Under the pieces are notes generated by a model. The model ran no database searches. It saw only the letters and a program-made list of their open reading frames with translations, and was not told the DNA's origin. A stretch of DNA of 64,000 bases, from NCBI RefSeq assembly GCF_029626225.1, contig NZ_JARUBP010000001.1, positions 3,286,001 through 3,350,000 on the forward strand, written 5' to 3'. This stretch comes from Asanoa sp. WMMD1127. GTDB lineage: Bacteria > Actinomycetota > Actinomycetes > Mycobacteriales > Micromonosporaceae. The position numbers were made by a program, and so were the translations under genes. Each line of letters opens with the position of its first letter. Within the stretch, counting starts at the first letter, position 1. Below, in pieces: positions 34,118-49,437 of this stretch.

Positions 34118-34895
34118 GCGCGGCCTGTCGCGCGCCCCGCGGGTGCGCGGCTGGCTTGGGTGGCCAGGCCGGCGTTGCCGGGTCACCGGTGGGCTTGGCC
34201 GGACCCCCGGCGATGGCCGGGTGGCCGGTTGGGCTTGGCCCGACCGCCGGCGCGGCCCTGCGACCGGCTGGCTGGGGCCAAGCCCGGCGTGTGCCAGGTG
34301 GCCCGGTTGGGTTTGGGTCGAGCTTTGGATCGGGCCGGGTGCCCGGTTGGGCTTGGCCCGACCGCCGGCGTGGGCCCTGCGACCGGTTGGCTTGGCCACA
34401 AGCCCGGCGTGTGCCGGGTGACCGGGGTTGGGTTTGGGTCGAGCTTTGGAGCGGGCCCGGTGGCGGGTAGGGGTTTGGGGCGAGCTTTGGAGCGGGCCGG
34501 GTGGCAGGGAGGGCTTGGCCCGACCGCCGGCATGGGCCCCGCAACCGGCTGGCTTGAGCCAAGCCCGGCGCGGGTCGGGTGGCCGGTTGGGTTTGGGTCG
34601 GGCTTTGGAGCGGGCCGGGTGGCCGGGTGGGCTTGGCCCGACCGCCGGCGTGGGCGCTGCGACGGGCTGGCTTGGGCCAAGCCCGGCGTGTGCCGGGTGG
34701 CCGGTTGGGTTTGGGTCGAGCTTTGGAGCGGGCCGGGTGGCCGGTTGGGCTTGGGTCGAGCCTTGGAGCGGGCCGGAGTGACCGGTTGGCTTGGCCGCCT
34801 CCGGCGTGCCGGGTGACTGGTTGCTTTGCCCGACAGCGGCCCGGGGCGGGTGAAGGGCTGGCCTGGCTCGAGGCTGGGGGTGTGCCGGTGTGGTC
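34118..34895. repeat. 0.78-kb tandem/interspersed GC-rich repeat tract
   Basis: No gene is supported. The block GCTTGGCCCGACCGCCGG recurs at about 34233, 34351, 34513 and 34631, with spacings of 118, 162 and 118 bp. A second block, GGGTCGAGCTTTGGAGCGGG (with variants), recurs at least six times between about 34315 and 34770. The arrangement looks like a decayed array of roughly 118-bp units with an extra 44-bp segment once. It lies between convergent genes. Confidence 0.75.
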
Positions 34896-35710
34896 TCAGC
34901 CGTCGCGCTTGGTGGTCCAGCGGAAGGTCGTGATGCAGAGGACTAGGCCGATTACGCACCAGATGCCCAGGACCAGGGCTACCTTGCCCAGCTCCCACGA
35001 GCCGCCAGGCTCCTGGGAGGCGAAGGAGTCCGGTAGGAAGACCGACCGGAGGCCCTGGCACATCCATTTCAGCGGGAAGATCGCTGCCACCGTCTGCATC
35101 CAGGTCGGCAGGCTGGTGAAGACGAAGAACACGCCGGAGATGAACTGCAGGATCAGGGCGACCGGGGTGACCACGGCGGGGGCGCTGCGGGCCGTGCGGG
35201 CGACCGACGAGAACGCGATGCCGCACAGCGTGCACGCCGAGATGCCCAGTAGCGACACCCACAGGAAGGTCAGCCAGCGGGTGCCCGAGGGTAGGTCGAG
35301 GTCGAAGAAGATCGTGGAGACCGCCAGCAGGACCACCGTCTCGACGAGGCCGACGATCAGCACCATGATGACTTTGCCGGCGAAGTAGACCCACTTGGGC
35401 ATCGGCGTGCCGCGTAGGCGCTTGAGCACCCCGCGGTCGCGCTCGGCGGGGATCTGGATCGCCAGGCTCTGGAAGCCCACGGACAGCAGGCCGGTCGCGA
35501 TCATGCCGGTGATGAAGTATTGGGTGAACTTGACCCCGCCGCCGATCTCCCCGTCGAAGATCGACGCGAAGATCACGATCATGATGGCTGGGAACGCCAT
35601 CGTGAACACGACGGCCTCGCGGCTGCGGCTGAACTGCTTGATCTCGAGGCTGCCCTGCCGGAGGCCGAGCGCGACCGGACCCGGTGCGGTTGCTGACTGC
35701 GTGGCGGTGG

Positions 35711-35714
<4 letters not shown>
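34896..35714 (-). CDS. ABC-2 type transporter permease
   Basis: The 272-residue membrane protein has six predicted helices. The ABC-2 pattern is clear: a cytoplasmic start, SREAVVFTMAFPAIMIVIFASIF in the first helix, an ERDRGVLKRLRGTPMPKW cytoplasmic coupling segment, and a final VVTPVALILQFISGVFFVFTSLPTWMQTVAAIFPLKW stretch. It pairs with the ATPase upstream, whose stop overlaps this ATG (ATGA). Together they form a DrrAB/NodJ-like exporter of drugs or lipids; the substrate is unknown. Confidence 0.88.
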
Positions 35715-36571
<857 letters not shown>

Positions 36572-36614
36572 GATGCCCTTCGCGTTCACGATCGGGCGCC
36601 CCGGGTCAACTGGC

Positions 36615-36640
36615 TGTGGATAACTTCCATCTGTGGATAA
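36615..36640. promoter_or_regulatory. Two perfect tandem DnaA boxes
   Basis: TGTGGATAA occurs at 36615-36623 and again at 36632-36640, both within the longer direct repeat CTGTGGATAACT. Its complement TTATCCACA is the consensus 9-mer recognised by the replication initiator DnaA. Starts are 17 bp apart and in the same orientation. They lie in the 168-bp gap between the ABC transporter and meaA. No dnaA or dnaN gene is in this window, so this is not the conventional oriC context. Confidence 0.7.
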
Positions 36641-36727
36641 CTCATAATGATCTTCGCCACCCCGCCAGACTCGCTGCCATGCACCGTCACCCCGGTCAAA
36701 CGTCCGAAAAGCGAGTAAATGCCGCCT

Positions 36728-36733
36728 TAGACT
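36728..36733 (+). promoter_or_regulatory. Probable -10 element for meaA
   Basis: TAGACT, a good TANNNT -10, is followed by six bases (GCGCCC) and the ATG at 36740. There is no ribosome site. This implies a leaderless meaA mRNA. The DnaA boxes lie about 90 bases upstream. Confidence 0.5.
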
Positions 36734-36739
36734 GCGCCC

Positions 36740-38731
36740 ATGGAGGGCCGCCTGCCGGAGCGCGACCGCCCCTGGGTGATGCGCACCTACGCGGGCCACT
36801 CTTCGGCGCGGGCCAGCAACGAGCTGTTCCGGCGCAACCTCGACAAGGGGCAGACCGGGTTGTCGGTGGCCTTCGACCTGCCCACCCAGACCGGCTACGA
36901 CCCCGACCACCCACTGGCCGCCGGCGAGGTCGGCCGGGTCGGCGTGCCGATCTCACACGTCGGCGACATGCGGGAGCTTTTCGACGGCATCCCGTTGGCC
37001 CAGGCCAACACCTCGATGACCATCAACGCGACCGCGATGTGGCTGCTCGCGCTCTATGTCGTGGTGGCCGAGGAACACGGCGCTACCGGCGCGGAGCTGT
37101 CCGGCACCACGCAGAACGACATCGTCAAGGAATACCTGTCCCGGGGCACGCACATCTTCCCGCCCGGCCCGTCGCTGCGGCTGACCACCGACATGATCGC
37201 GTGGACCGTCGCCAACGCGCCGCGGTGGAACCCGATCAACGTCTGCTCCTACCACCTGCAGGAGGCCGGCGCGACGCCCGTCCAGGAGGTCGGCTTCGCG
37301 CTGGCGACGGCGGTGGCGGTGCTCGACGCCGCGCGCGACTCCGGTCAGGTTCCCGCGGGGCGGATGGGCGACGTCGCCGGGCGCATGTCGTTCTTCGTCA
37401 ACTCCGGCGTGCGCTTTGTCGAGGAGATGGCGAAGATGCGCGCCTTCGCGGCGCTGTGGGACGAGATCACCGCGAGCCGGTACGGCATCGCGGATCCGAA
37501 GCAACGGCGCCTGCGCTACGGGGTGCAGGTGAACTCGCTAGGCCTCACCGAGGCTCAGCCGGAGAACAACGTCCAGCGGATCGTGCTGGAGATGCTGGGC
37601 GTGACGCTGTCCCGGTCCGCCCGGGCGCGCGCCGTGCAGTTGCCCGCCTGGAACGAGGCGCTCGGCCTGCCCCGCCCATGGGACCAGCAGTGGTCGCTGC
37701 GGATGCAGCAGGTGCTGGCCTACGAGTCCGACCTGCTCGACTATCCCGACCTGTTCGACGGCTCACCGGTGGTGGCCGCGCTGGTCGACTCGATCGTCGA
37801 GGGTGCGCGCCGGGAGCTCGACCAGATCCTGACGCTCGGCGGCGTGGTCGCCGCCGTCGACTCGGGCTATCTCAAGGCCGAGTTGGTGGCGTCGCTGGCC
37901 GAGCGCCGCCGGCGGATCGAGTCGGGCGACGAGGTGGTGGTCGGGGTAAACCGCTACGTCGACACCGAGCCGTCGCCGTTGACCACGACCGGGGCCGACC
38001 ATGTCGAGCAGGTCGACCCCGCGGTCGAGGCCCACGCCGCCGCCGCTGTGCGCGAATGGCGTGCCGCGCGCGACCCGGCGGCGGTTCGGTCAGCCATGGA
38101 ACGGCTCCGCGCTGACGCCGCGAGCGGTGCCAACCTGATGCCGGCCACCATCGCCTGCGCACGGGCCGGGGTGACCACCGGCGAGTGGGCGGAGGCGCTG
38201 CGGGAGGTGTTCGGCGAATACCGGGCGCCGACCGGCCTGTCGGCGGTGAACGGCAGCGGTCAGGACCAATCGCTGGCAGCGGTACGGGAGCGCGTGTTGG
38301 GCACCGCGACCGACCTCGGCGGCGGGCGGCTGCGGCTGCTGGTCGGCAAGCCCGGCCTCGACGGTCACTCCAACGGCGCGGAGCAGATCGCGGTGCGGGC
38401 GCGGGACGCCGGCTTCGAGGTGATCTATCAGGGCATCCGGTTGACGCCCGAGGAGATCGTCGCGGCGGCCGTCGAGGAAGACGTCGACCTGGTCGGCCTG
38501 AGCGTGTTGTCGGGCTCACACCTGGCCGCCGTGCCCGCGGTGCTCGACGGCCTCCGGGCCGCCGGCCGCGCGGACCTGCCGGTCGTGGTCGGTGGCATCA
38601 TCCCGCCGGGCGACGCCGACAAGCTACGCGCGGCAGGCGTCGCCCGGGTCTTCACCCCGAAGGACTTCGCCCTGACCCAGATCGTCAACGAGCTGGTCGA
38701 CGTGATCCGCACGGCGAACGCCCTGACCTGA
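36740..38731 (+). CDS. meaA: Ethylmalonyl-CoA mutase (MeaA), coenzyme B12-dependent
   Basis: The enzyme converts (2R)-ethylmalonyl-CoA to methylsuccinyl-CoA in the ethylmalonyl-CoA pathway of acetyl-CoA assimilation. The 663-residue single chain matches the streptomycete MeaA pattern along its length: RPWVMRTYAGHSSARASNELFRRNL, then AFDLPTQTGYDPDHPL, SGTTQNDIVKEYLSRGTHIFPPGPS, and a C-terminal B12 domain. The cobalt ligand is His543 in GKPGLDGHSNGAEQIAVRARDAG (DxHxxG). It is distinct from two-subunit methylmalonyl-CoA mutase. The other pathway genes (ccr, mcd) are not in the window. Confidence 0.92.
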   Translation: MEGRLPERDRPWVMRTYAGHSSARASNELFRRNLDKGQTGLSVAFDLPTQTGYDPDHPLAAGEVGRVGVPISHVGDMRELFDGIPLAQANTSMTINATAMWLLALYVVVAEEHGATGAELSGTTQNDIVKEYLSRGTHIFPPGPSLRLTTDMIAWTVANAPRWNPINVCSYHLQEAGATPVQEVGFALATAVAVLDAARDSGQVPAGRMGDVAGRMSFFVNSGVRFVEEMAKMRAFAALWDEITASRYGIADPKQRRLRYGVQVNSLGLTEAQPENNVQRIVLEMLGVTLSRSARARAVQLPAWNEALGLPRPWDQQWSLRMQQVLAYESDLLDYPDLFDGSPVVAALVDSIVEGARRELDQILTLGGVVAAVDSGYLKAELVASLAERRRRIESGDEVVVGVNRYVDTEPSPLTTTGADHVEQVDPAVEAHAAAAVREWRAARDPAAVRSAMERLRADAASGANLMPATIACARAGVTTGEWAEALREVFGEYRAPTGLSAVNGSGQDQSLAAVRERVLGTATDLGGGRLRLLVGKPGLDGHSNGAEQIAVRARDAGFEVIYQGIRLTPEEIVAAAVEEDVDLVGLSVLSGSHLAAVPAVLDGLRAAGRADLPVVVGGIIPPGDADKLRAAGVARVFTPKDFALTQIVNELVDVIRTANALT

Positions 38732-38846
38732 TTCGCCCTAACGAGTCGGTTGGTCAACCTGATCTTGCTGGCAACGCTCTGGCCCAAAGGTCGCCGTCAG
38801 GCTGGCGGGGCGGCCAGCTTGTCAAAGGCGGCGACGCGACGAGGGG

Positions 38847-39536
38847 TCAGGTCAGGGTGATGATCACGGCGCAGAGGGCGCTGAGGCCGCCCAGGACGGT
38901 CAGGGCTACACCGCCGGTGTCCAGGCGGGCGCCCCAGCGGCGGCGGGTCCAGCGTGAGGCGACGGGGATGCCGGCGAAGGGGGAGGCGAAGTAGGCGAGC
39001 CAGGCGATCAGGCGCAAGGCGCCCGCGCCGGGGAGGTCGTGGGTGGCCAGTGCGGCCAGGGCGCTGGCCAACGTGGCGGTGATCGCTGTGGTGGCGGCGC
39101 CCAGGAAGGGGAGGAGGGGAGGCACCAGGACAGGGAGCTTGCCGTTGTCGCCGAGGGTGAGGCGCGGTGATCCGCTGTGGATGCGGTTCGCGGCGCGGGC
39201 CAGCAGCGCGGTGCTCGCGTCGTCGTCGACCTCGACCGGGGGTTGGGCCGTGGCCGGTGCGGGGTCCGGCGCCGCGCCGGGGCGTTGGCCGGGCCAGGCG
39301 CGGGTTCGTCGCAGGTCCGCCCAGAGGCGTTCGGCTTCCAGGTCGACCTCGACCACCGCGGCTGCCGCCGCGGCGGCGTGGCGGTCCGAGTCGTGCGCTT
39401 CCTGCTCCGCGCGCCGCAGAGCCGCGGCCGCGGCGGTCATTCCGTCGCGGTAGGCGCGCTCGGCAGCGGCCAGGTCGTTGGTCCGGCGGGCGACGGTCGC
39501 AGCGAGCTCCGTCATGAGGCCGTGGTAGTCGGTCAT
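38847..39536 (-). CDS. Membrane protein of the FtsK-like operon, unknown function
   Basis: The 229-residue protein has an N-terminal charged coiled-coil region (about 1-75, rich in A, E, R). A Pro/Asp-rich linker follows, then three hydrophobic segments (about 134-160, 167-190 and 207-229). Its ATG overlaps the FtsK-like gene stop (ATGA), so translation is coupled. It is the only membrane component of the four-gene operon and could anchor or form the exit for the ATPase. No known domain is recognised. Confidence 0.7.
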   Translation of the reverse strand: MTDYHGLMTELAATVARRTNDLAAAERAYRDGMTAAAAALRRAEQEAHDSDRHAAAAAAAVVEVDLEAERLWADLRRTRAWPGQRPGAAPDPAPATAQPPVEVDDDASTALLARAANRIHSGSPRLTLGDNGKLPVLVPPLLPFLGAATTAITATLASALAALATHDLPGAGALRLIAWLAYFASPFAGIPVASRWTRRRWGARLDTGGVALTVLGGLSALCAVIITLT

Positions 39537-42454
39537 CCGGAGTGTCCGGTAGGGCTCGCAGCGGACGACTGCATTGCGGACTCCTGGCTTGCCGGCGCCG
39601 TTGGAACCGAGCAGGCAATCGGGCCCGAGCCGGCCTCGGAGGGTGTCGCGAGGTCACTGCGGGTGTCAGCAGCGGAGGCTGGCGAGGTTGCCGGGCGAAC
39701 CGTGCGGGCGTGACCAGCCGCAGGATCCGAAGCGGCCACGGCTGCGGGACCGGGACAGGGTTCTGGCATCTCGCGGTTGCCGGAGCGGTCCTGGCCGGGT
39801 TGGCGGAGGTCTTGTTGGCGTGGCAGCGGGGATTGGCGGGCGACCAGGCGGTCGGCGGGGATTTCGTATGGGACGACCACCTCGGGAGGGCGGCCTGTGT
39901 TGCGGTCGAAGTAGAGGGCTCGGCGGTCGCGAGGGTGCCAGGTGGGGCCGCCGGGCTGGGGCGACAGGGGGGAGAGGTCTGGGCCGTGTATGTCGAGGGC
40001 TACCCAGGCGCCGATCGCGTCCGTGCGGGTGCCGGGGCCGCCGAGGTCGTCGCGGAGGCGGGCTACCGTGCGCCACCAGCCGAGGACGTGGGTGCCGTTT
40101 TCCGGGCCGCGGGTCAGGAGGGGCTTGAGGTCGATGCCGGGTGGGCGGGCGTCCCAGACGAAGCCGATCACCACGTGTGGACCGCCGTCGGCTGCCAGCG
40201 GGGAGGTGACGAGGTCGCTGACGGTGGACCGGTCGTAGAGGCGGGCGTTCGGTAGGGCCGCGGTCAGGGTCGCGGCGGTGGGCAGCAGGGCGTCGTCCAG
40301 GCAGGCCACGCTGAAGCGGGACGCGGTCGGGGCGAGCGACAGGGCCGCCGCCGTGAGGATGGCGGTGGCGTCGGAGGCGCGGGTGCCGAGTACGGCCAGG
40401 TTGCGGCCGGGGGCGCGGTCGAGCGCGAACGTCGCCGGGCGGGCGCCGACGTCGATCGTCTCGCCGAGGAGGGCGGCCGGCCCGACACACGAAGCGGGCA
40501 GGAGGGGCACGGCGTCGCCGTCGAAGAGGCGGGGCGGCGGAGTGTGGACCCCCGGCCCCAACAAGGAAGCGGGCAGGAGGGGCACCGCGTCGCCGTCGAA
40601 GAGGCGGGGCGGCGGGGTGTGGGCGGGGCGGCGTTGCCACAGGTCGTGTTGCAGGCGGCGCCACGTGTCGCGGTCGCTGGCGTCGGGGATGCGTACCACC
40701 TGGTTGGCGGGGGTTACGCCCGAGTCCGCGTTGACCACCGCCGTGTGGCGCGGGATCGAATCGGCGGCCGGGTTCGTCTCGGCCAGGATGCGGCGGGCCT
40801 TGGGGAGGGCTACGCGCAGCGTGAACTGGGCCACCAGGCCCGAGCGCCCCCACAGTGCCTCGATGCCGGAGACGTCCTGCGACGCCAGCACCAGGTGGAT
40901 GCCTTGCGAGCGGCCGCGGCGGGCCAGGTCCTCCAGCAGGGCGACCGCTTCCGTCGTGACCGCGTCGCGGCCCGCCAGCAGCACCTGGAACTCGTCGATC
41001 ACCGCCACGATGCGGGGCCACGGCGTCCCGGGATCCTCGGCGCGCAGCTCCGACAGCTTGGTCGCGTCGTGACGTTTGGCGGCCGCGGCTCGGGTGCGGA
41101 GCTCCGCGCCGAGGTGACGGAGCAGGGCCAGGCCGAACTCGCGGTCGTTGTTGATGTTCACCCCGACCAGGCGTACGTGCGGCAGCCAGCTCGGATCCCG
41201 CCGGCTCGGCGCGAACCGGGCGAAGGACACGCCTTCCTTGAAGTCGAGGAGGTAGAGGGCCAGCTCGTCGGGGGAGTACCGGGCGCACAGGGCGCCGAGC
41301 CACGCGTAGATCAGGTTGGTCTTGCCCGAGCCGGACGGCCCGCCGATCAGCGCGTGCGGTGGGTCGTCACCCAACGCGAGCGACACCGGCGCGGCGCCGC
41401 CGAGCAGCGTGCCCACCGGCGCCGACACCCCGTCGATCGCCTGGCAGGTCCAGGGTTGTCCGGGCAGCAGGTCGAGAAACGACGCGGCGGGCGGTCCAGA
41501 CGTCGCCGCCTCGGCCACCGCCCGGCACCGCCCGGCGACGAGAGCCGCCGACGGCGCCGGGTCCAGCGTGATGGGCAGGTCGGCCACCGCCGCGGAGCGC
41601 GCCACGCCGTCGGCGACCGACACCTCCACCACCGTCCGGGCGGCGGGCACCGGCAGGCCGCGGACGACCAGGTGGATCCCGCACGCCGGGCCCAGCCGCA
41701 CGACCCGGTCGAGCTGCGCCTGCTGGGCGGGCGTCAGCTCGGCCGCGGTGGCCGCGTCACCGAGCAGGACCACCACCTGCCACGGCGCCGGCCGCGGACT
41801 CAACGCCGTCACCGACGTGTGGCCGGCAGCCAGCACCACGGCGTTGATCCGGCCGATCTCCTCGACCAGCTCGTCCACCATGGACCCCAGCGCCCCCGGC
41901 CCCACGAACCGCACCAGCGACGCCGCCCCCAGCGGAGCGAACCCGGACAGCGTGCCGCCGAGCCGCTCGGGGTCGTAGACCGTCAGCCGCACCGACCCGG
42001 GCGGAGTCGCCGTCAACACCCGCAGCAGCACGAGCCGCACCACATCGTCCACCATGGACGACGAGAACCAGAGGTGGCCGCGGTCGAGCAGCGGCAGCAG
42101 CGCGGGCAGGACCGCGTCGCAACCGGGCGCCGGCACGGTGCCGACCGGCACCAGCGTGTGATCAGGCTCGACATCCGCCAGCGAAGCCGCCAGCCGCCGC
42201 GACGACTCGACGAAAGAGGCCTCGATCGCCCGCCGGGCCCGTTCGCGCTCTGCGCCCAAACCCTTGACACAGGCCAGATGCGCCTCGCGCACGGCCCGCA
42301 ACCGCTCGAGCGCCGAAGCCCGCCGCGACTCGGCCGCCGCCGACGTGGCCCGCGCCTGCCCCCGCGCGGCCGCCAACTCGGCCCGCACCTCGGCCACCAA
42401 CCGCGCCCGCGCCCCAGTCACCTCAGGCCTCCCCGCCAACCCAGAACGCCGCAT
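39533..42454 (-). CDS. FtsK/SpoIIIE (EccC-like) ATPase with coiled-coil N-terminus
   Basis: This soluble 973-residue protein has no membrane helix, unlike FtsK and EccC. Residues 1-95 are a charged coiled coil. A first P-loop-like module (about 125-300) lacks a Walker A. The second (about 335-605) is an intact FtsK motor: GGPSGSGKTN at 371-380, IVAVIDEFQVL at 482-492 and LVLASQ sensor. A third module (about 665-860) has a degraded loop (GTRASDA). The last 110 residues are Pro/Ser/Ala-rich and probably disordered. A 25-residue tandem duplication spans 612-655. Three modules with one or more degenerate resemble EccC/EssC of type VII secretion, but nucleic acid pumping is not excluded. Confidence 0.8.
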   Translation of the reverse strand: MRRSGLAGRPEVTGARARLVAEVRAELAAARGQARATSAAAESRRASALERLRAVREAHLACVKGLGAERERARRAIEASFVESSRRLAASLADVEPDHTLVPVGTVPAPGCDAVLPALLPLLDRGHLWFSSSMVDDVVRLVLLRVLTATPPGSVRLTVYDPERLGGTLSGFAPLGAASLVRFVGPGALGSMVDELVEEIGRINAVVLAAGHTSVTALSPRPAPWQVVVLLGDAATAAELTPAQQAQLDRVVRLGPACGIHLVVRGLPVPAARTVVEVSVADGVARSAAVADLPITLDPAPSAALVAGRCRAVAEAATSGPPAASFLDLLPGQPWTCQAIDGVSAPVGTLLGGAAPVSLALGDDPPHALIGGPSGSGKTNLIYAWLGALCARYSPDELALYLLDFKEGVSFARFAPSRRDPSWLPHVRLVGVNINNDREFGLALLRHLGAELRTRAAAAKRHDATKLSELRAEDPGTPWPRIVAVIDEFQVLLAGRDAVTTEAVALLEDLARRGRSQGIHLVLASQDVSGIEALWGRSGLVAQFTLRVALPKARRILAETNPAADSIPRHTAVVNADSGVTPANQVVRIPDASDRDTWRRLQHDLWQRRPAHTPPPRLFDGDAVPLLPASLLGPGVHTPPPRLFDGDAVPLLPASCVGPAALLGETIDVGARPATFALDRAPGRNLAVLGTRASDATAILTAAALSLAPTASRFSVACLDDALLPTAATLTAALPNARLYDRSTVSDLVTSPLAADGGPHVVIGFVWDARPPGIDLKPLLTRGPENGTHVLGWWRTVARLRDDLGGPGTRTDAIGAWVALDIHGPDLSPLSPQPGGPTWHPRDRRALYFDRNTGRPPEVVVPYEIPADRLVARQSPLPRQQDLRQPGQDRSGNREMPEPCPGPAAVAASDPAAGHARTVRPATSPASAADTRSDLATPSEAGSGPIACSVPTAPASQESAMQSSAASPTGHSG
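40491..40622. repeat. 75-bp tandem duplication inside the FtsK-like gene
   Basis: The sequence starting GAAGCGGGCAGGAGGGGCAC repeats with a 75-bp period (starts 40491 and 40566). The first 57 or so bases differ at only two positions. It duplicates the peptide HTPPPRLFDGDAVPLLPAS in frame, in the linker between the second and third ATPase modules. Confidence 0.85.
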
Positions 42455-42505
42455 ACCGACCGCCGCGGCGGCCGACCGCGCCGGCGATGCGAGGCTCGGA
42501 CAGCA

Positions 42506-43228
42506 TCAGGACTCCCCGATCGAAGCGGCCAGCGACTCCACACTCACGCCGGTCGAACCCACCACCACCGCGGCGATCGCGGCGGCGTCAGCGGGGTGGG
42601 CCGAAACGACAACGTCGGACAGCCGCAGCGCCCGATCGACCAGGGCCGCGCCCTCCGCACGAGACAGCCCGGGAAGGACCGAGCCGACAACCGGAAGCGC
42701 CCGCTCCCGGACCACCGACGGAGCGACCGCGCCGATGAGACGAGCGGCGGCCGCCGCCAAAGACCAGCCCACCGAAGGCGGCGCCGTCACCAACGCCCGC
42801 CGCAGCCCTTCCCGATCACCCGCAGACGCCGCGCCCGCCGCGGCAACCAGAAGGGTGAAGACCGAAACCCCCGGAGAAACGGGAGGCCGCCCAACGCCGA
42901 CGCACCCGGTCAACACATCCACCCGATCCGCCCACGGACACGACCCCGAGACCACCACGGCCGAAGGCGGCAAGGACGACAACCCGACCGACGCCAGATA
43001 CCGATCCAACTCGTCACCCGCGAGCCCGAGCGCACCCACCGCCGCGTCCAGATGCGACGCGGCCACCGACAGCAACCGCGCCGACGACGCCATGGAGCTC
43101 TCCGCGAGCGTCGCGGACAACACGGAAGTCGCCGCCCGCACCGACACGGACGCAAGGGCCACCTCGGCGGACGGCAGCGACGACCGCACCAGCGCGACCC
43201 GGTCGGCCAGCCCCAACACCAGGCTCAC
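42506..43228 (-). CDS. Helical protein of the FtsK-like operon, unknown function
   Basis: The 240-residue protein is rich in Ala, Val, Ser and Leu. Its first half looks like two long helices (VALVRSSLPSAEVALASVSVRAATSVLSATLAESS, AARLLSVAASHLDAAVGALGL). A VFTLLVAAAGAASAGD segment and further helices follow. No cysteine motif, signal peptide or known fold is recognised. The helical-bundle style recalls PPE/LXG-type partners of type VII systems, without their signature motifs. GTG 43228 overlaps the stop of the 86-residue gene. The FtsK-like gene follows 51 bases later in the same reading frame, separated by one TGA. Confidence 0.65.
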   Translation of the reverse strand: MSLVLGLADRVALVRSSLPSAEVALASVSVRAATSVLSATLAESSMASSARLLSVAASHLDAAVGALGLAGDELDRYLASVGLSSLPPSAVVVSGSCPWADRVDVLTGCVGVGRPPVSPGVSVFTLLVAAAGAASAGDREGLRRALVTAPPSVGWSLAAAAARLIGAVAPSVVRERALPVVGSVLPGLSRAEGAALVDRALRLSDVVVSAHPADAAAIAAVVVGSTGVSVESLAASIGES

Positions 43229-43485
43229 AGCGCCGCGGCGTACGTCTGGGCCTGTTCCATCGCCCCTAGCGTCGCGGTCATGCAGTCGTCGAGCTCCGTG
43301 GCCGCCTGGGCCAGGGCCGAGCGGGCCGCGGCGACCGACTCGTGGCCGCTGCCGTCGACCGCCGCCGCGAGGCTGGTGCGGGCCGCGTCCAACTTGTCCG
43401 TCGCGGCGCGTACCGCTTCCTGTCCTTCCTGGACGTGCGCCATCGCGACGTCGATGGCGGCCTTGACCTCGGCAACGCTCGCCAT
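43225..43485 (-). CDS. Small helical WXG100-like protein without the WXG motif
   Basis: The 86-residue product (MASVAEVKAAIDVAMAHVQEGQEAVRAATDKLDAARTSL...) is almost wholly amphipathic helix. A Gly-rich turn (VDGSGHES) in the middle divides it into two arms. Size and helix-turn-helix layout match ESAT-6/WXG100 secretion substrates, but the turn lacks W-x-G. An excellent ribosome site (GTGGAGGGGGAA) precedes ATG 43485, and TAACGT (about 43524-43529) could be the operon's -10. It is the first gene of the four-gene operon. Confidence 0.65.
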   Translation of the reverse strand: MASVAEVKAAIDVAMAHVQEGQEAVRAATDKLDAARTSLAAAVDGSGHESVAAARSALAQAATELDDCMTATLGAMEQAQTYAAAL

Positions 43486-43580
43486 GGTTCCCCCTCCACG
43501 CACCAGCCGAGACGATGACGCTACGTTATCGCCGGAATGCGAGAGGTGAGCGCGCCGCGCCGACCCGGCGTGAGGAACGG

Positions 43581-44165
43581 TCAGGCCGCGCGTTGTCGCC
43601 GGGCGCCGCGCCGCCGCAGCGCCCAGACGAAGAAGAGGACGAGCAGCACCAGGAACAGCAGGATCAGCACCGGAAGCAGCAGCGCCACCACCGACATCAC
43701 GACACTGAGGACATCCTCGACAGTGCTGGCGACCGGCGCGCCGACGCCGGCCGTGCTGACGTTGATCACCGGGCGGGCGGTCGCCTTCACCCCGTGGACG
43801 CCGAGCGCCAGCAGCACACCCACCGCGACCGGCACCCACTGGTGCGAGCCGAAGAAGCCGCCCGGGTCGGTGACCGTCGCGCTGCTCGTGCCGGCGCCGA
43901 AGGCGAGACCACCGGCGGTCGGCCGGACCACCGTCTGCACGATGTCGTTGGCCGAGTCGAGCACCGGCACCTTGTCGGCGACGACCTCGATGGCCAGCAG
44001 CGCGCCGAGGATGAGGATGACCCAGCCGTTGCCGAGCCAGCCCCAACCGGCCGGCAACGAGATCACGTCGGTGTAGCGCGACAGCACCCCGATCGCGAGG
44101 AGCGGGATGTAGGCGTTGAGGCCGGCGGAGGTCGCGAGGCCCGCGCCGGTGAGGGCTTCCAGCAC
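43581..44165 (-). CDS. DUF4126 membrane protein
   Basis: The 194-residue membrane protein starts VLEALTGAGLATSAGLNAYIPLLAIGVLSRY, the hallmark of the DUF4126 family. It has about five membrane helices and a basic RRRGARRQRAA tail. The GTG at 44165 begins this conserved block. The family is widespread in actinobacteria and functionally undefined. It is divergent from nucS across 44 bases and ends 95 bases before the FtsK-like operon's first gene, reading the same way. Confidence 0.8.
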   Translation of the reverse strand: MLEALTGAGLATSAGLNAYIPLLAIGVLSRYTDVISLPAGWGWLGNGWVILILGALLAIEVVADKVPVLDSANDIVQTVVRPTAGGLAFGAGTSSATVTDPGGFFGSHQWVPVAVGVLLALGVHGVKATARPVINVSTAGVGAPVASTVEDVLSVVMSVVALLLPVLILLFLVLLVLFFVWALRRRGARRQRAA

Positions 44166-44197
44166 GACCTCAGCATGGCACCACCGCACCACCCGCG

Positions 44198-44203
44198 TAG
44201 GGT
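44198..44203 (+). promoter_or_regulatory. Probable -10 of leaderless nucS mRNA
   Basis: TAGGGT lies six bases before the GTG start at 44210, with no ribosome binding site. This is consistent with a leaderless transcript. Confidence 0.4.
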
Positions 44204-44209
44204 TGTGCG

Positions 44210-44869
44210 GTGCGTCTCGTGATCGCCCGCTGCTCCGTCGACTACGTCGGCCGGCTCTCCGCCCACCTGCCCCCGGCCACCCGGTTGCTGATGGTCAAGG
44301 CCGACGGCTCGGTCTCCGTGCACGCCGACGACCGCGCCTACAAGCCGCTCAACTGGATGAGCCCGCCGTGCCGGATCCAGGAGGAGCCCGGGGTCTGGCG
44401 CGTGGTCAACAAGGCCGGCGAGGAGCTGCGGATCACTCTGGAGGAGATCTTCCAGGACACGTCGTACGACCTGGGTGTCGATCCTGGCCTGGTCAAGGAC
44501 GGTGTCGAGGCGCACCTGCAGGAGCTGCTGGCGGCCAACCCGACCACGTTCGGCGAGGGCTTCACGCTGGTCCGCCGCGAGTACATGACCGCGATCGGCC
44601 CGGTCGACCTGCTCTGCAAGGACGCGGCCGGCCGCTCCGTCGCCGTCGAGGTGAAGCGCCGCGGCGAGATCGACGGGGTGGAGCAGCTCACCCGCTACCT
44701 CGAACTGATGAACCGCGACCCCCTGCTCGCTCCCGTCGCCGGCATCTTCGCCGCGCAGGAGATCAAGCCGCAGGCCCGGGTGCTCGCCGAGGACCGCGGC
44801 ATCCGCTGCGTGGTCGTCGACTACGACAAGCTGCGCGGCATCGAGCGCGATGAGCTGACGTTGTTCTGA
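44210..44869 (+). CDS. nucS: Mismatch-specific endonuclease NucS (EndoMS)
   Basis: NucS cuts both strands at G-T, G-G and T-T mismatches. It provides mismatch repair in actinobacteria that lack MutS/MutL. The 219-residue protein has the N-terminal DNA-binding half ([34 protein letters not shown]). The RecB-like nuclease half carries the catalytic Asp, Glu and Lys in [35 protein letters not shown]. The last residues, DELTLF, form the clamp-binding peptide that recruits it to the sliding clamp. Start at GTG 44210. Confidence 0.95.
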
Positions 44870-44895
44870 CCGCCGGCCGGTGCCACGCTGTACCC

Positions 44896-45951
44896 GTGAG
44901 CGACGTCGAGATCGGACGGTCGGCCACCGCCGTGCACACGGCGGGTCGTGACCTGCGCGACGCGTTGGCCACCGGCACGGCACCGGACGCGGCCGCGGAC
45001 CGGCTGGCCGACGCGATCGAGAGTGGACTCGCCGCGCTGGAGAACGCCCCGCCGGGCGCGACGGCACGGCCGGCCCAGGAAGACCCGGACGCGATGCTGG
45101 CGGTCGTCGCCGACCAACTGCGGCTCGGCGAGGTCGCCCTGGCCGCCGCGGCCGCCGTCGAGGAACGCAGCCCCAGCCCGGCCCTCGACACCGCCCTGCG
45201 GCACCTGGACCACACGACGACCCACGGCCGCCACGCGGCCGAGCGCGTCGCCTCCCACGACCTGCCCGAGGCGGTCGCCACCCTGCGGGCCCGGCTCGGC
45301 GGCACCCTGGACGCGATCGCCACCGGCACCGCCGACGTCGTCGCCGGTCCACTCAAGAGCATCGCCGGCAAGGCCCCCGCCCAGTGGAAGGAAGCCTGGG
45401 ACAAGGTCAGCAAGCAGCTGTTCCTCGACAACATCGGCGGCCGGCTGGTCCGCCTCGGCCTGCGCGCCCTGTCCAAGGCCCTCGACGCCCTGCGCCGCCT
45501 CATCGACGCCACCTGGCTCGAGACCGCCCGCGACCGCCTGGTCGCGCTGGCCGACAGAGCGGGCGAAGCCGGCGCCGGCCCCGCGCTGGTCGGCGGCATG
45601 CTCGGCGCGGAACGCCTACGCGCCGACGCGGACGGCCTGCTGAAGGCGGAGACCTTGGACCGCGCCCGGCTCGACGGCGGCACCGAGGCGCTGGCCGCCC
45701 TGGCCGACCGGTTCGGCAGCCTGATCGGGAAGCTGGCCCTCGCCCAGGCCGCGGTCGGCGGCATCCTGGTCGTCCACGGCCACTTCGGCTTCGCGGTGCC
45801 CTGGCTGCCGGCCGCGCTCCTCGGCGCCGAGCTGCTGATCGGGGCGGTCGCGGTGGTGCTGGCGATGGACTACGTCGACACCACGGTCAACGTGGGCCGG
45901 GTGCGCGGCGCCCGCCTCATCGTCCAGGACGCCGCCCGTAGAGCAGCTTGA
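44896..45951 (+). CDS. Hypothetical protein with long helical region and two C-terminal membrane helices
   Basis: The 351-residue protein is not recognised. Residues 1-150 are helical and Ala/Asp-rich. A DUF-like block (about 155-215) reads GPLKSIAGKAPAQWKEAWDKVSKQLFLDNIGGRLVRLGLRALSKALDALRRLID. Two hydrophobic segments (about 283-302 and 307-327) precede a short tail. There is no signal peptide. It starts 26 bases after nucS and may share its transcript. The 3' end overlaps the convergent aldehyde dehydrogenase gene by 35 bases. Confidence 0.65.
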   Translation: MSDVEIGRSATAVHTAGRDLRDALATGTAPDAAADRLADAIESGLAALENAPPGATARPAQEDPDAMLAVVADQLRLGEVALAAAAAVEERSPSPALDTALRHLDHTTTHGRHAAERVASHDLPEAVATLRARLGGTLDAIATGTADVVAGPLKSIAGKAPAQWKEAWDKVSKQLFLDNIGGRLVRLGLRALSKALDALRRLIDATWLETARDRLVALADRAGEAGAGPALVGGMLGAERLRADADGLLKAETLDRARLDGGTEALAALADRFGSLIGKLALAQAAVGGILVVHGHFGFAVPWLPAALLGAELLIGAVAVVLAMDYVDTTVNVGRVRGARLIVQDAARRAA

Positions 45952-47428
45952 CCGCCTTGGTGATCCGGGCGACCTGGGCCGGCGTGCGCTCGAAGGTCAT
46001 CGCCCGCAGGGCCGACGGGCCGCGCCGGGTGGTGATCGCCTTGGCCCGGGAGAACTCCCGGAGCCCGTCGTCGCCGTGGGTGCGGCCGAAGCCCGAGTTG
46101 CCGACGCCGCCGAACGGCAGCGACGACATGCCGATGAAGGTGATCACCGAGTTGACCGAGGCCATGCCCGTGCGCAGCCGGCGGGCGGCGGCCACGGCGC
46201 GGCGCTTCCCGAACACCGCACCACCGAGGCCGTACGAGGTGGCGTTGGCCAGCCGGACCGCCTCGTCGACGTCGGCGACCTTGTTGATGACCAGCGTCGG
46301 ACCGAACGTCTCCTCGCGCACGGCGGCCGAGTCCTCCGGCACGTCGACCAGGATCGTGGGCTTCACGAACGGCGGCTCGATCGCCTCGCGGCCGCCCAGC
46401 ACCGCGCGGCCGCCGCGGGTCAGCGCGTCGTCGATGTGACCCCGGATGACCTCGATCTGCTTGGGCATGGTGATCGGGCCGATGTCGAAGCCGTCGCCGT
46501 AGCCGACCTTCAGCGCTCCGGCCCGGCGGACCACCTCGGCGACGAAGGCGTCGTAGACCGGTGCCACCGCGTAGACCCGCTCGATCGCGAGGCAGGTCTG
46601 GCCCGCGTTGGTCAGCGCGCCCCAGACGCACGCCTCGGCGGCGGCCGCGACATCGGCGTCGTCGTCGACGATCAGCGCGTCCTTGCCGCCGGCCTCGATC
46701 AGCACCGGGGTCAGCGTCTCGGCACAGGCCGCCATGACCTTCTTGCCGGTGGCGGTGGAGCCGGTGAACGCCACCTTGTCGACGCCGGCGTGGCAGAGCG
46801 CGGCGCCGACCTCGCCCAGGCCCTGCACGATCTGCAGCACCGGCTGCTCGGGCACGACCTCGGCGAACGTGTCGACCAGCCACTGCCCGACCGCCGGCGT
46901 GTATTCGCTCGGCTTGAAGACGACCGTGTTGCCCGCGGCCAGCGCGTAGGCGGCCGTGCCGAGCGGGGTGATCGCCGGGTAGTTCCACGGGCCGATCACG
47001 CCGACCACGCCCATCGGCTGGTATTCGAGGTGCGCCGAGAACTCGGCCAGCGTCATCCGGCCCCGCACCCGGCGCGGGCCGAGCACCCGCTTGGCGTTGC
47101 GGGCCGCCCAGTCGATGTGGTCGATCGCGCCGGCCACCTCGACGATGGCCTCGGCCACCGGCTTGCCGCCCTCGCGGCTGATCAGCGCGGCGACCTCCTC
47201 GATCCGCAGGGCGAGCAACGCCCGCCAGCGCAGCAGCCGCGCCCGGCGGCCGGCATGACCGAGGGCGACCCACCAGTCGGCGGCCTCGCGGGCCCGCGCG
47301 ACGGCACGGGCGACGTCGTCGGCGTCGGCGACCGGGAACCGGCCGACCTCTTCGCCGGTCGCGGGGTTCGTCGACACCAGCGCGCCGTCCTCGACGACGG
47401 GCACACCGGCCACCCGGGCAGCAGTCAT
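45917..47428 (-). CDS. Aldehyde dehydrogenase
   Basis: The NAD(P)-dependent enzyme oxidises aldehydes to carboxylates. The 503-residue protein has the general-base glutamate Glu245 in LIEAGGKDALIV and the catalytic thiol Cys279 in NAGQTCLAIERVY. The cofactor segments GVIGPWNYPAITPL and FTGSTATGKK are present, as is PFGGVGNSGFGRTHG near the end. The C-terminal tail (about 460-503) resembles the membrane-proximal extension of class 3-like dehydrogenases. Substrate is not evident. It is divergent from the alpha/beta hydrolase pair. Confidence 0.92.
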   Translation of the reverse strand: MTAARVAGVPVVEDGALVSTNPATGEEVGRFPVADADDVARAVARAREAADWWVALGHAGRRARLLRWRALLALRIEEVAALISREGGKPVAEAIVEVAGAIDHIDWAARNAKRVLGPRRVRGRMTLAEFSAHLEYQPMGVVGVIGPWNYPAITPLGTAAYALAAGNTVVFKPSEYTPAVGQWLVDTFAEVVPEQPVLQIVQGLGEVGAALCHAGVDKVAFTGSTATGKKVMAACAETLTPVLIEAGGKDALIVDDDADVAAAAEACVWGALTNAGQTCLAIERVYAVAPVYDAFVAEVVRRAGALKVGYGDGFDIGPITMPKQIEVIRGHIDDALTRGGRAVLGGREAIEPPFVKPTILVDVPEDSAAVREETFGPTLVINKVADVDEAVRLANATSYGLGGAVFGKRRAVAAARRLRTGMASVNSVITFIGMSSLPFGGVGNSGFGRTHGDDGLREFSRAKAITTRRGPSALRAMTFERTPAQVARITKAVKLLYGRRPGR

Positions 47429-47509
47429 GCGGCGAAGTCTATGCCGCCGCGGTTACCCGCCGGTAGGTGTGGGTTCCCCACACAGCGAAGCCGCCGGGTG
47501 TGGCGCATC

Positions 47510-48568
47510 ATGACCGCCATGGAGCACCAGCAGGTACGCGTCCGCGCGCACGGAATCGACCAGAACGTCCTCGTCGCCGGGCCGGCCGACGGTCCGCCCG
47601 TGCTGATGATCCATGGCAACTGCTCGTCCGCCGACTTCTGGCGGCCGCTGCTCCGCCATCTGCCGCCCCACCTGCGGATCGTGGCCCCGGACCTGCGCGG
47701 CTACGGGTCGACCGAGGCGGCCCCGGTGGACGCGACGCGCGGCCTGCGCGACTTCGCCGACGACGTGGCGGCCCTGCTCGACGCGCCGGAGCTGTTCCCA
47801 ACCGGCGCCAAGCCGCTGGTCGTGGCCCACTCGATGGGCTGCGGCGTGGCGATGCAGCTGCTGGTCGACCACCCCGAGCGGGTCGACGCGCTGCTGCTGG
47901 AGGCGCCGCTGTCGCCGTACGGCTTCGGTGGCACCCGTGATCTCGACGGCACGCCGACCACGGCGGACTTCGCCGGCACCGGCGCGGGGACCGCCAACCT
48001 CGACTTCGTCGCGCGGCTCGCCGCCAAGGACCGTGAGGCCGAGGCGCCGACGAGCCCGCGCACGGTGATGCGCACCGCCTACGTCGCCGACCCCGCGTCG
48101 CTCGGCCCCGACGAGGAGCTGCTGCTCGACACCGTGCTGTCGACCGTGACGGGTGACGACAACTACCCCGGCACCTCGACCGCGAGCCCCAACTGGCCCG
48201 GCGTCGCGCCCGGCGACCGCGGCGTGCTCAACACGATGGCGCCCAACCACTTCCGGATCGCCGACGACCTGGTCGCCGTGACCCCGAAACCCCACATCAC
48301 CTGGGTACGCGGTGACCGCGACGCCATCGTCTCGGACACCTCGCTGTTCGACCTGTCGTACCTCGGCTCGCTGGGTTTCGTCCCGGGTTGGCCGGGCGAC
48401 GAGGCGAGCCCGTCACAGCCGATGGTCGGCCAGACCCGGGCGGTGTTCGAGCGCTACACCGCGGCCGGGGGCAGCTACCGCGAGGTGGTGTACGCCGACT
48501 GCGGCCACTCGCCGCACATCGAGCGCCCCGCCGAGTTCGTCGCCGCGCTGCTGGAGCTGGTGGCATGA
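47510..48568 (+). CDS. Alpha/beta hydrolase
   Basis: The 352-residue protein has the oxyanion region MIHGNCSSADFW, the nucleophile elbow AHSMGCG (Ser about 109) and a C-terminal catalytic His in YADCGHSPHIERP. An insert of about 100 residues after strand 6 forms a lid. ATG 47510 and ATG 47519 are both possible starts. Its stop overlaps the next gene's ATG (ATGA). Substrate unknown. Confidence 0.85.
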   Translation: MTAMEHQQVRVRAHGIDQNVLVAGPADGPPVLMIHGNCSSADFWRPLLRHLPPHLRIVAPDLRGYGSTEAAPVDATRGLRDFADDVAALLDAPELFPTGAKPLVVAHSMGCGVAMQLLVDHPERVDALLLEAPLSPYGFGGTRDLDGTPTTADFAGTGAGTANLDFVARLAAKDREAEAPTSPRTVMRTAYVADPASLGPDEELLLDTVLSTVTGDDNYPGTSTASPNWPGVAPGDRGVLNTMAPNHFRIADDLVAVTPKPHITWVRGDRDAIVSDTSLFDLSYLGSLGFVPGWPGDEASPSQPMVGQTRAVFERYTAAGGSYREVVYADCGHSPHIERPAEFVAALLELVA

Positions 48569-49437
48569 GGTCCTACCGGCGCGACACGGTGGCGGTCGAC
48601 GGCGGCGACCTGACCGTCGGCGTCTGGGGCGACGGCGGCCCGCTGGTGGTCGCCGCGCACGGCATCACCTCGCACCACCTGGCCTGGGGCCTGGTCGCGC
48701 CGAGCGTCGGGCTCGACCACCGGTTCGTGGCGCCCGACCTGCGGGGCCGGGGGCGCAGCCGGGACCTGCCCGGGCCGTACGGGATGGACCGGCACGCCGA
48801 AGACCTCGCCGCGGTGATCCGGGCCCACGGGGAGCGGGCCGTGGTGGTCGGCCACTCGATGGGCTGCTGGGCCGCGATCGCGCTGGCCCGCCACGAGCCG
48901 GAGCTGGTCGAGCGGCTGGTGCTGGTCGACGGTGGGCCGCCGCTGGCGCCGCCGCCGGGCGTGCCGGCCGAGCCGACGGCCGACCAGGTCACGCGGGTGA
49001 TCACGGAGACGATCGGCCAGGCGTACGCCCGGCTGTCGATGACGTTCCCGGACCGCGCGGCCTACCGCGACCTGTGGCAGGCCCACCCGTCGCTGGCGGA
49101 GTGGAACGACGCGATGACCATGTACGCCGACTACGACCTGGTCGACGACGGCGGCGTGCTCCGCCCCGCGTGCCGGCTCGAGGCGGCGCTGCGGGACGCC
49201 CGCGACCTCTACGCCTGGCAGCCTGTTCCCCCCGAGCCGTTGCCGGTGCCGGCGATCTTCCTGCGGGCCGAGCGCGGGATGCTCGACCAGCCGGAGGGGC
49301 TGTTCGCACCGGGCGCTGCCGGGCGGGCGTTCCCGGGCGTCGTGGAGCGCGACGTGCCGGGCACCAACCACTACACGATCACCCTGTCGCCGAAAGGCGC
49401 GGCCGACGTGGTGACGGCGGTGCGAAGCGGCGGCTGA
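48565..49437 (+). CDS. Alpha/beta hydrolase, second of a coupled pair
   Basis: The 290-residue protein shows the AAHGITSHHLAW oxyanion region, the DLRGRGRSRDLPGPYGMDRHAEDL motif, the nucleophile elbow VVGHSMGCWAA and a late Asn-His (PGTNHYTITL) as catalytic His. The pair overlaps by four bases, so co-translation is likely, but the sequences are only distantly related. Haloalkane dehalogenase-, esterase- and lactonase-like roles are all open. Confidence 0.85.
   Translation: MRSYRRDTVAVDGGDLTVGVWGDGGPLVVAAHGITSHHLAWGLVAPSVGLDHRFVAPDLRGRGRSRDLPGPYGMDRHAEDLAAVIRAHGERAVVVGHSMGCWAAIALARHEPELVERLVLVDGGPPLAPPPGVPAEPTADQVTRVITETIGQAYARLSMTFPDRAAYRDLWQAHPSLAEWNDAMTMYADYDLVDDGGVLRPACRLEAALRDARDLYAWQPVPPEPLPVPAIFLRAERGMLDQPEGLFAPGAAGRAFPGVVERDVPGTNHYTITLSPKGAADVVTAVRSGG

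Follow-up and report, generated by a model that had tools for sequence, protein, structure and literature searches.

A four-gene operon on the minus strand

The subject of this analysis is an operon of four genes on the minus strand of Asanoa sp. WMMD1127, here called g1 to g4. It lies within the window, by which we mean the whole stretch of 64,000 nucleotides that was analysed. The order of the genes and the GTGA and ATGA overlaps at two of their three joints were found as in the original prediction (Table 1). The operon combines a soluble EccC-like ATPase (g3) with a small hairpin protein that is probably a distant relative of ESAT-6, an antigen of the tuberculosis bacterium (g1), a second hairpin protein (g2) and a coiled-coil membrane protein (g4). 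Apart from the FtsK domain, the curated names of Pfam and NCBIfam cover none of the four genes. The host genome comprises 7.97 Mb in 3 contigs, with the operon on the 7.96-Mb contig.

Table 1. Features of the operon and its flanks (positions in the window)
Feature	Position	Strand	Description	Basis
g1	43225-43485	(-)	86 aa; WXG100-like helical hairpin, turn VDGSGHE, C-terminal YxxxL	Open reading frame (ORF), AlphaFold2 (AF2), family profile
g2	42506-43228	(-)	240 aa; g1-like hairpin in first ~85 residues	ORF, hhalign, distribution
g3	39533-42454	(-)	973 aa; soluble ATPase of EccC type with a coiled-coil N-terminus and three FtsK-like modules, of which only the middle one has Walker A/B	
g4	38847-39536	(-)	229 aa; coiled coil and C-terminal membrane segments (two clear, one marginal)	ORF, segment scan, profile homologues
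GTGA overlap, g1 stop/g2 start	43225-43228	(-)		
ATGA overlap, g3 stop/g4 start	39533-39536	(-)		
Conserved block upstream of g1	43513-43549	(-)		Window aligned with three Asanoa loci
Methylmalonyl-CoA mutase	36740-38731		Flanking gene	
DUF4126	43581-44192		Flanking gene	
Endonuclease NucS	44210-44869		Flanking gene	

The gap between g2 and g3 amounts to 51 nt if g3 begins at the ATG at 42454. By eye, the in-frame GTG at 42421 marks the point where homologues of g3 begin, so that the true length of the protein is perhaps 962 aa. The conserved block upstream of g1 may represent the promoter region.

The ATPase g3 is a soluble EccC-like motor

The original prediction had described a single intact FtsK motor in g3. 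Its Walker motifs, GGPSGSGKTN (residues 371-380) and IVAVIDEFQVL (482-492), are indeed present and conserved in 29 of 29 aligned sequences, in the middle module only; a second Walker A motif was looked for in g3 and none was found. Thirty relatives of g3 were obtained. In a Pfam scan FtsK_SpoIIIE was the sole family above the cut-off (2.4e-15), and the NCBIfam model EccCa scored 77.9 bits, far below its cut-off of 509 bits. The closest solved structures, by sequence as well as by Foldseek, are EccC and EssC, which bears out the predicted likeness to EccC. With hhalign the live module aligned to ATPase 1 of EccC (7e-23) and the stretch preceding it, the first module, to later EccC modules (97.6%). 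The third module is assigned from an alpha/beta model and a Foldseek alignment to full EccC; the model, built with 10 sequences, has a mean predicted local distance difference test (pLDDT) value of 57, a poorly modelled middle module and low TM-scores. At the N-terminus the model contains a long helix (residues 13-93), which we read as a coiled coil. On inspection by eye alone, in place of a segment scan, g3 showed no hydrophobic segment that could provide a membrane anchor, and the gamma domain of FtsK had no Pfam match in g3 up to an E-value of 1.

In a tree of motor domains, 18 rows of soluble ATPases active in the middle module, a group defined before the tree was built, formed one clade with support values of 100/98, or 97/94 with one FtsK row as outgroup. 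This clade is separate from EccC modules 1 and 2 and from the large ATPases of Streptomyces and Curtobacterium, and the predicted separation from FtsK holds on the basis of the one FtsK row. Long branches are found for the rows from Deinococcus, Helicobacter and a TerD-associated Rhodococcus ATPase. The clade may reflect common descent of these soluble ATPases; its rows comprise neither TraB proteins nor the sequences from the two papers (Zhang 2012, Bell 2024) discussed below. Overall, the assignment of g3 as an EccC-like motor is well supported. A pattern scan of viral contigs (P0003) revealed no relative.

Between the middle and the last module, g3 contains a tandem near-duplicate of 75 bp (25 aa) at 40469-40618, in which TPPPRLFDGDAVPLLPAS is repeated and which Tandem Repeats Finder did not list.

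g1 and g2 carry related helical hairpins

The AF2 model of g1 is a two-helix hairpin (helices 4-45 and 48-85) with a mean pLDDT of 82.8. The helix-turn-helix of the original prediction is to be read as a helical hairpin, as which g1 was expected to model, and not as a DNA-binding domain. All 23 aligned sequences, in rows chosen by hand, have a length of 86-87 residues. When the profile of these sequences was compared with 177,635 PDB sequences, ESAT-6 was the top match (3.8e-5), ungapped over residues 9-80 and with the GSG turn of g1 in register with the WXG turn of ESAT-6. Among 22 chosen targets the same profile matched two Esx proteins from the host's own ESX loci at 2.1e-6 and 1.3e-4, the best of 2,100 shuffles reaching 1.1e-3. 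Profile-profile alignment with hhalign against six WXG100 proteins (four Esx proteins of the own genome and two plasmid proteins) gave 74.5%, a value reached by 0 of 60 shuffles. Against twelve divergent WXG100 proteins the match was weaker (48.3%, score 26.4); here the best shuffle came near (24.9, 42.1%), with 0 of 60 as high. Kinship with WXG100 proteins, as predicted, is therefore upheld by the profiles despite the loss of the tryptophan.

The WXG motif itself is absent from the turn, where the window protein has VDG. Trp43 occurs in one of 59 distinct sequences, which were selected for Gly45, and is lost in the other 58; His48 is conserved in 54 and Tyr82 in 57 of them. Gly45 is invariant in the 23-sequence alignment. 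For the motif count 79 ORFs matched g1, from which five were removed (two relatives of 87 aa shifted by one residue, one mis-trimmed sequence and two unrelated ones). The window protein has no match to Pfam WXG100, no curated family in Pfam or NCBIfam claims it, and two other family members match WXG100 below the cut-off (0.0027 and 0.011). Some relatives of g1 have weak Pfam matches to other coiled coils that are no worse than certain of the WXG100 matches; matches to the Exonuclease VII small subunit and HrpB7 were set aside as coiled-coil noise. Foldseek of the g1 model returned 587 matches at E<=10, 0 of them at E<=0.001, and no WXG100 protein was among the best 50 of the 587. Since the two-helix hairpin is an unspecific fold, the WXG100 claim rests on the sequence profiles. 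From these g1 is probably a hairpin of the WXG100 superfamily that has lost its tryptophan, an assignment we consider moderately to well supported. A tblastn search with g1 against plasmids (P0001) gave no match up to 0.1.

The first 85 residues of g2 resemble g1. With hhalign they aligned to g1 at 92.5%, compared to 48.4% for the best of 60 shuffles (0 of 60 as high) and 0.5% for the reversed sequence. The g2 profile also matches, at 4e-5 and 1e-4, two g1 proteins of a second module type (type 2, see below). Directly against WXG100 the N-terminus of g2 aligned weakly (5.3%), and among PDB sequences nothing convincing was found for g2, the best match (0.018) being a designed coiled coil.

Distribution, membrane partner and selection

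Of 150 Micromonosporaceae genomes, 124, from 33 of the 44 genera, have a g1 match at E<=0.001; at 1e-6 the profile matched 31 of 296 genomes of the class (9 of 115 genera). From the 124 genomes we picked loci with a strong g1 match, one per genus, which yielded 28 main-type loci from 27 genomes. g2 is present in all 28, g3 and g4 in 27, and 27 of these loci have the complete set of four side by side, so that their predicted co-occurrence was borne out. Profile homologues of g4 follow g3 in 27 of the 28 loci (20 of the 27 outside the profile build). They also occur in five of five Actinoallomurus/Actinomadura loci (one of them in the profile), all of which keep g1, g3 and g4. Because g2 was not found in these five loci, we consider g1, g3 and g4 as the core. 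In g4 two membrane segments are clear (134-152 and 210-228); the three C-terminal segments originally predicted are partly borne out, as a third reaches the threshold in the Asanoa ishikariensis homologue.

The operon occurs in four Asanoa records with a g3 identity of 72-78% (best segments). It is complete in three, and the fourth record begins inside g2, at a contig end. For all four genes the ratio of nonsynonymous to synonymous substitution rates (dN/dS) indicates purifying selection: against two Asanoa loci (L010 and L011) it was 0.08-0.11 for g1, 0.38-0.42 for g2, 0.285 for g3 and 0.25-0.31 for g4. For the flanking genes, compared with one Asanoa locus, we obtained 0.075 (nucS), 0.117 (DUF4126) and 0.140 (methylmalonyl-CoA mutase). 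The block of genes stays constant while the neighbouring families vary by lineage. This is a real, conserved module, chromosomal in the host genome and widespread in the family, that is apparently inherited vertically. EccD scored above the cut-off in 149 of the same 150 genomes, with three matches in the own genome, and therefore the presence of an ESX system does not discriminate.

Relatives on plasmids and in described systems

A tblastn search with g3 hit 48 plasmid records, none with 80% coverage. Nine were inspected. The ATPase belongs to the soluble clade in five of them; in the other four, from Streptomyces and Curtobacterium, it is a large one, and genes annotated as WXG100 lie close by. 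On a Rhodococcus plasmid (L018) the relative is accompanied by Hsp70, TPR and GrpE genes and by an 86-aa relative of g1 (1.6e-7 against a profile built without it). The Caballeronia relative belongs to an operon with VWA, DUF1887 CARF, PP2C and kinase genes, near a WXG100 protein that scores above the Pfam cut-off (3.6e-7). A Rhodococcus relative stands near TerD genes and has, by eye, a TerD-like N-terminus on the ATPase. WXG100-like proteins below the cut-off lie near the ATPases of Rhodococcus L020 (0.005), of Helicobacter (4.6e-5), whose locus also contains a WHH/colicin-type nuclease and a SUKH protein, and of Deinococcus (two genes, 2.7e-4 and 7.6e-5). The relatives with a WXG100-type partner near the ATPase are L018-L020, L126 and L127. 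A hairpin domain fronting the 272-aa neighbour in L018 and a 215-aa neighbour in L093 was considered and dropped (g1 profile E-values of 0.15 and 1).

The original prediction had called the module undescribed, which does not hold: a WXG protein with a three-module ATPase active in the middle is a class already known. A footnote to Table 1 of Zhang 2012 (PMC3482391) lists a 'solo WXG' with a YueA-like ATPase whose three HerA/FtsK domains include one active domain, the middle one, and speaks of 'mobile versions of T7SS' (type VII secretion system). The present module shares the three modules, the middle-only activity and the WXG-type partner. It differs in being chromosomal and family-wide in actinobacteria, in having g4 and often g2, and in the lost WXG. 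Bell 2024 (PMC11090510), in its account of Type III-A CoCoNuT extensions, describes an EssC-like ATPase that starts with a coiled coil, lacks membrane helices and is active in its central module only. It has two WXG100 partners, of which one lacks the motif; for stand-alone copies the paper refers to Anantharaman 2012. The coiled coil, the lack of membrane helices, the activity of the central module alone and the WXG100 partners, including a motif-less one, recur here, whereas McrBC-type, TerY-P and VWA genes were not recognised around the present module. ESX systems (T7SSa), with EccC and EsxA/EsxB, provide the nearest solved relatives of g3 and g1. In contrast to them the present ATPase lacks a membrane anchor and a Walker A motif in its first module, the locus has no EccB, EccD, EccE or mycosin, and g1 has neither WXG nor YxxxD/E. 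FtsK DNA translocases share the motor domain, but g3 branches separately, comprises three modules and had no detectable gamma domain.

In the open papers searched we found no account of an actinobacterial chromosomal version. What is new is the chromosomal, family-wide form, apparently inherited vertically, whose partners are a coiled-coil membrane protein and a WXG-less protein under strong conservation. The Micromonospora lupini genome paper (PMC4182475) mentions an FtsK/SpoIIIE gene annotated as eccC (40438) outside its three named T7SS clusters, which may or may not correspond to g3.

Proposed function and alternatives

We propose that the four gene products form a reduced, type VII-like motor complex, which would most likely use ATP to export g1, either by itself or together with g2; we give this reading even chances. 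g3 would act as an EccC/EssC-type ATPase without membrane anchor. The g1 hairpin would pair with itself or with the front hairpin of g2, and the resulting pair would be recognised by g3. The single live middle module would hydrolyse ATP, presumably within a hexamer, the dead flanking modules would bind partners, and the coiled coil of g4 could tether the complex to the membrane. More doubtful is the wider claim that most Micromonosporaceae possess a second, minimal type VII-like exporter, with a housekeeping rather than antagonistic role, for which the g3 motor, a hairpin pair of g1 and the g2 N-terminus, and g4 suffice without EccB, EccD, EccE or mycosin.

Several observations weigh against export. 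There is no known channel, with just two or three membrane segments in g4. Among the NCBIfam matches listed, the EccB, EccD, EccE and mycosin models matched neither the four proteins nor the ten flanking ORFs (34183-49437). YxxxD/E occurs in the last 12 residues of 0 of the 59 distinct g1 sequences, and WXG100 targets other than the two host Esx proteins scored 0.0037 to 1.1 with the g1 profile, i.e. within the shuffle range. In locus L079 one ORF covers both g2 and g3, joined by a proline-rich linker, an arrangement that fits a structural component better than a cargo. Locus L071 has g1 and g2 without g3 and g4, its genome having a g3 elsewhere (62% identity); the match to this detached g3 (L132, G028:C3:203484-205934) contains two in-frame TGA codons by the tool's read-through. 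No effector gene was recognised among the neighbour families present in at least 4 loci, and g1 is the slowest-evolving of the four genes, unlike an arms-race substrate. The exporter of the original prediction is a likely reading but an inferred one: no known pore is encoded, and g1 lacks YxxxD/E.

A different role is an intracellular stress or defence module, in which the WXG100-like pair and the ATPase would form a cytoplasmic, membrane-tethered switch or assembly driven by nucleoside triphosphates, as in conflict systems, and nothing would be exported. Kaur 2020 (PMC7159879) describes HSP70/GrpE and kinase/PP2C/vWA conflict systems. Such a role would fit the plasmid relatives in a VWA/DUF1887 CARF/PP2C/kinase operon, after Hsp70/TPR/GrpE genes and near TerD genes, the PADLOC matches of g3 to SspH (4e-17) and mad8 (2e-16), the strong constraint on g1, and the main-type loci that adjoin NucS (11 of 45) or a Clp-type AAA gene (8 of 45). 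The latter two, however, lie beyond the operon and are neighbours in certain lineages only. Among the ten neighbour representatives scanned, we saw no family of nucleases, sensors, kinases or chaperones that tracks the module from lineage to lineage. Furthermore, the module is near-universal in Micromonosporaceae (g1 in 124 of 150 genomes), while most defence islands are not near-universal within a family. We regard this role as possible but unlikely.

That g3 with g1 and g2 serves as a soluble accessory motor of a resident ESX, using a pore encoded elsewhere in the genome, appears still less probable. g1 is probably a distant homologue of Esx proteins, EccD is found in 149 of 150 genomes, and the own genome has three EccD matches and three EccC loci; yet 26 of the 150 genomes have EccD and no g1 match, and the sole EccD-less genome, a fragmented assembly, has one. 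Relatives also occur on plasmids of Helicobacter, Caballeronia and Deinococcus, hosts in which, to our knowledge, ESX membrane proteins are not expected. A DNA pump, i.e. a conjugation or segregation ATPase of the FtsK/TraB type, is the least credible alternative and very improbable. The FtsK_SpoIIIE domain of g3 would suit it, both FtsK and the conjugation ATPase TcpA are among the Foldseek matches, and the type-2 paralogue adjoins genes that seem to resemble a conjugative element. Against this stand the missing gamma domain in the Pfam scan, EccC outscoring FtsK by sequence and fold, the tree that sets g3 apart from FtsK, and the WXG100-like partner.

If g1 is exported by the proposed type VII-like complex, the minimum set for WXG100 transport would be a soluble motor and one small membrane protein, which would bear on how EccC engages its cargo and on the purpose of the remaining ESX apparatus. 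If it is not, the module would show that WXG100/EccC-type pairs do non-secretory work, as a trait conserved in a large family of actinobacteria.

Neighbouring genes and paralogous loci

The methylmalonyl-CoA mutase, DUF4126 and NucS genes hold the same place in the other Asanoa and in several other loci. Across 45 loci, with genes called by an in-house heuristic, the neighbouring families were DUF4126 (11), NucS (11), methylmalonyl-CoA mutase (10), JmjC-type (10), Clp-type AAA (8) and biotin ligase (5).

The type-2 module of the own genome (L002/L028) has the order ATPase, membrane protein, 86-aa protein. This copy is located ~15 kb from an ESX locus with EccC, EccD-like and subtilase genes (L028:7558-19858 and L027:8226-15132; C1, ~2.31-2.34 Mb). 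Homology of g4 to the type-2 membrane protein was considered and is not shown by hhalign (2.9%), though 0 of 30 shuffles scored as high. In seven fetched loci with a weaker g1 match an ATPase was nearby in four and absent in three. L090 (6998-7530) and L093 (5664-7294) contain tandem g1-like genes of 87 and 85 aa with no ATPase nearby, followed in both by a common 142-aa protein (in L093 also by a 215-aa protein), in an apparent mobile element. At ~5.91 Mb on C1 of the own genome (L031:1400-12687) a further FtsK-like ATPase has two notable neighbours, one of 166 aa with a WTG turn and one of 1417 aa. The motor domain of this ATPase falls among the large Streptomyces ATPases in one tree and has no resolved position in the FtsK-rooted tree.

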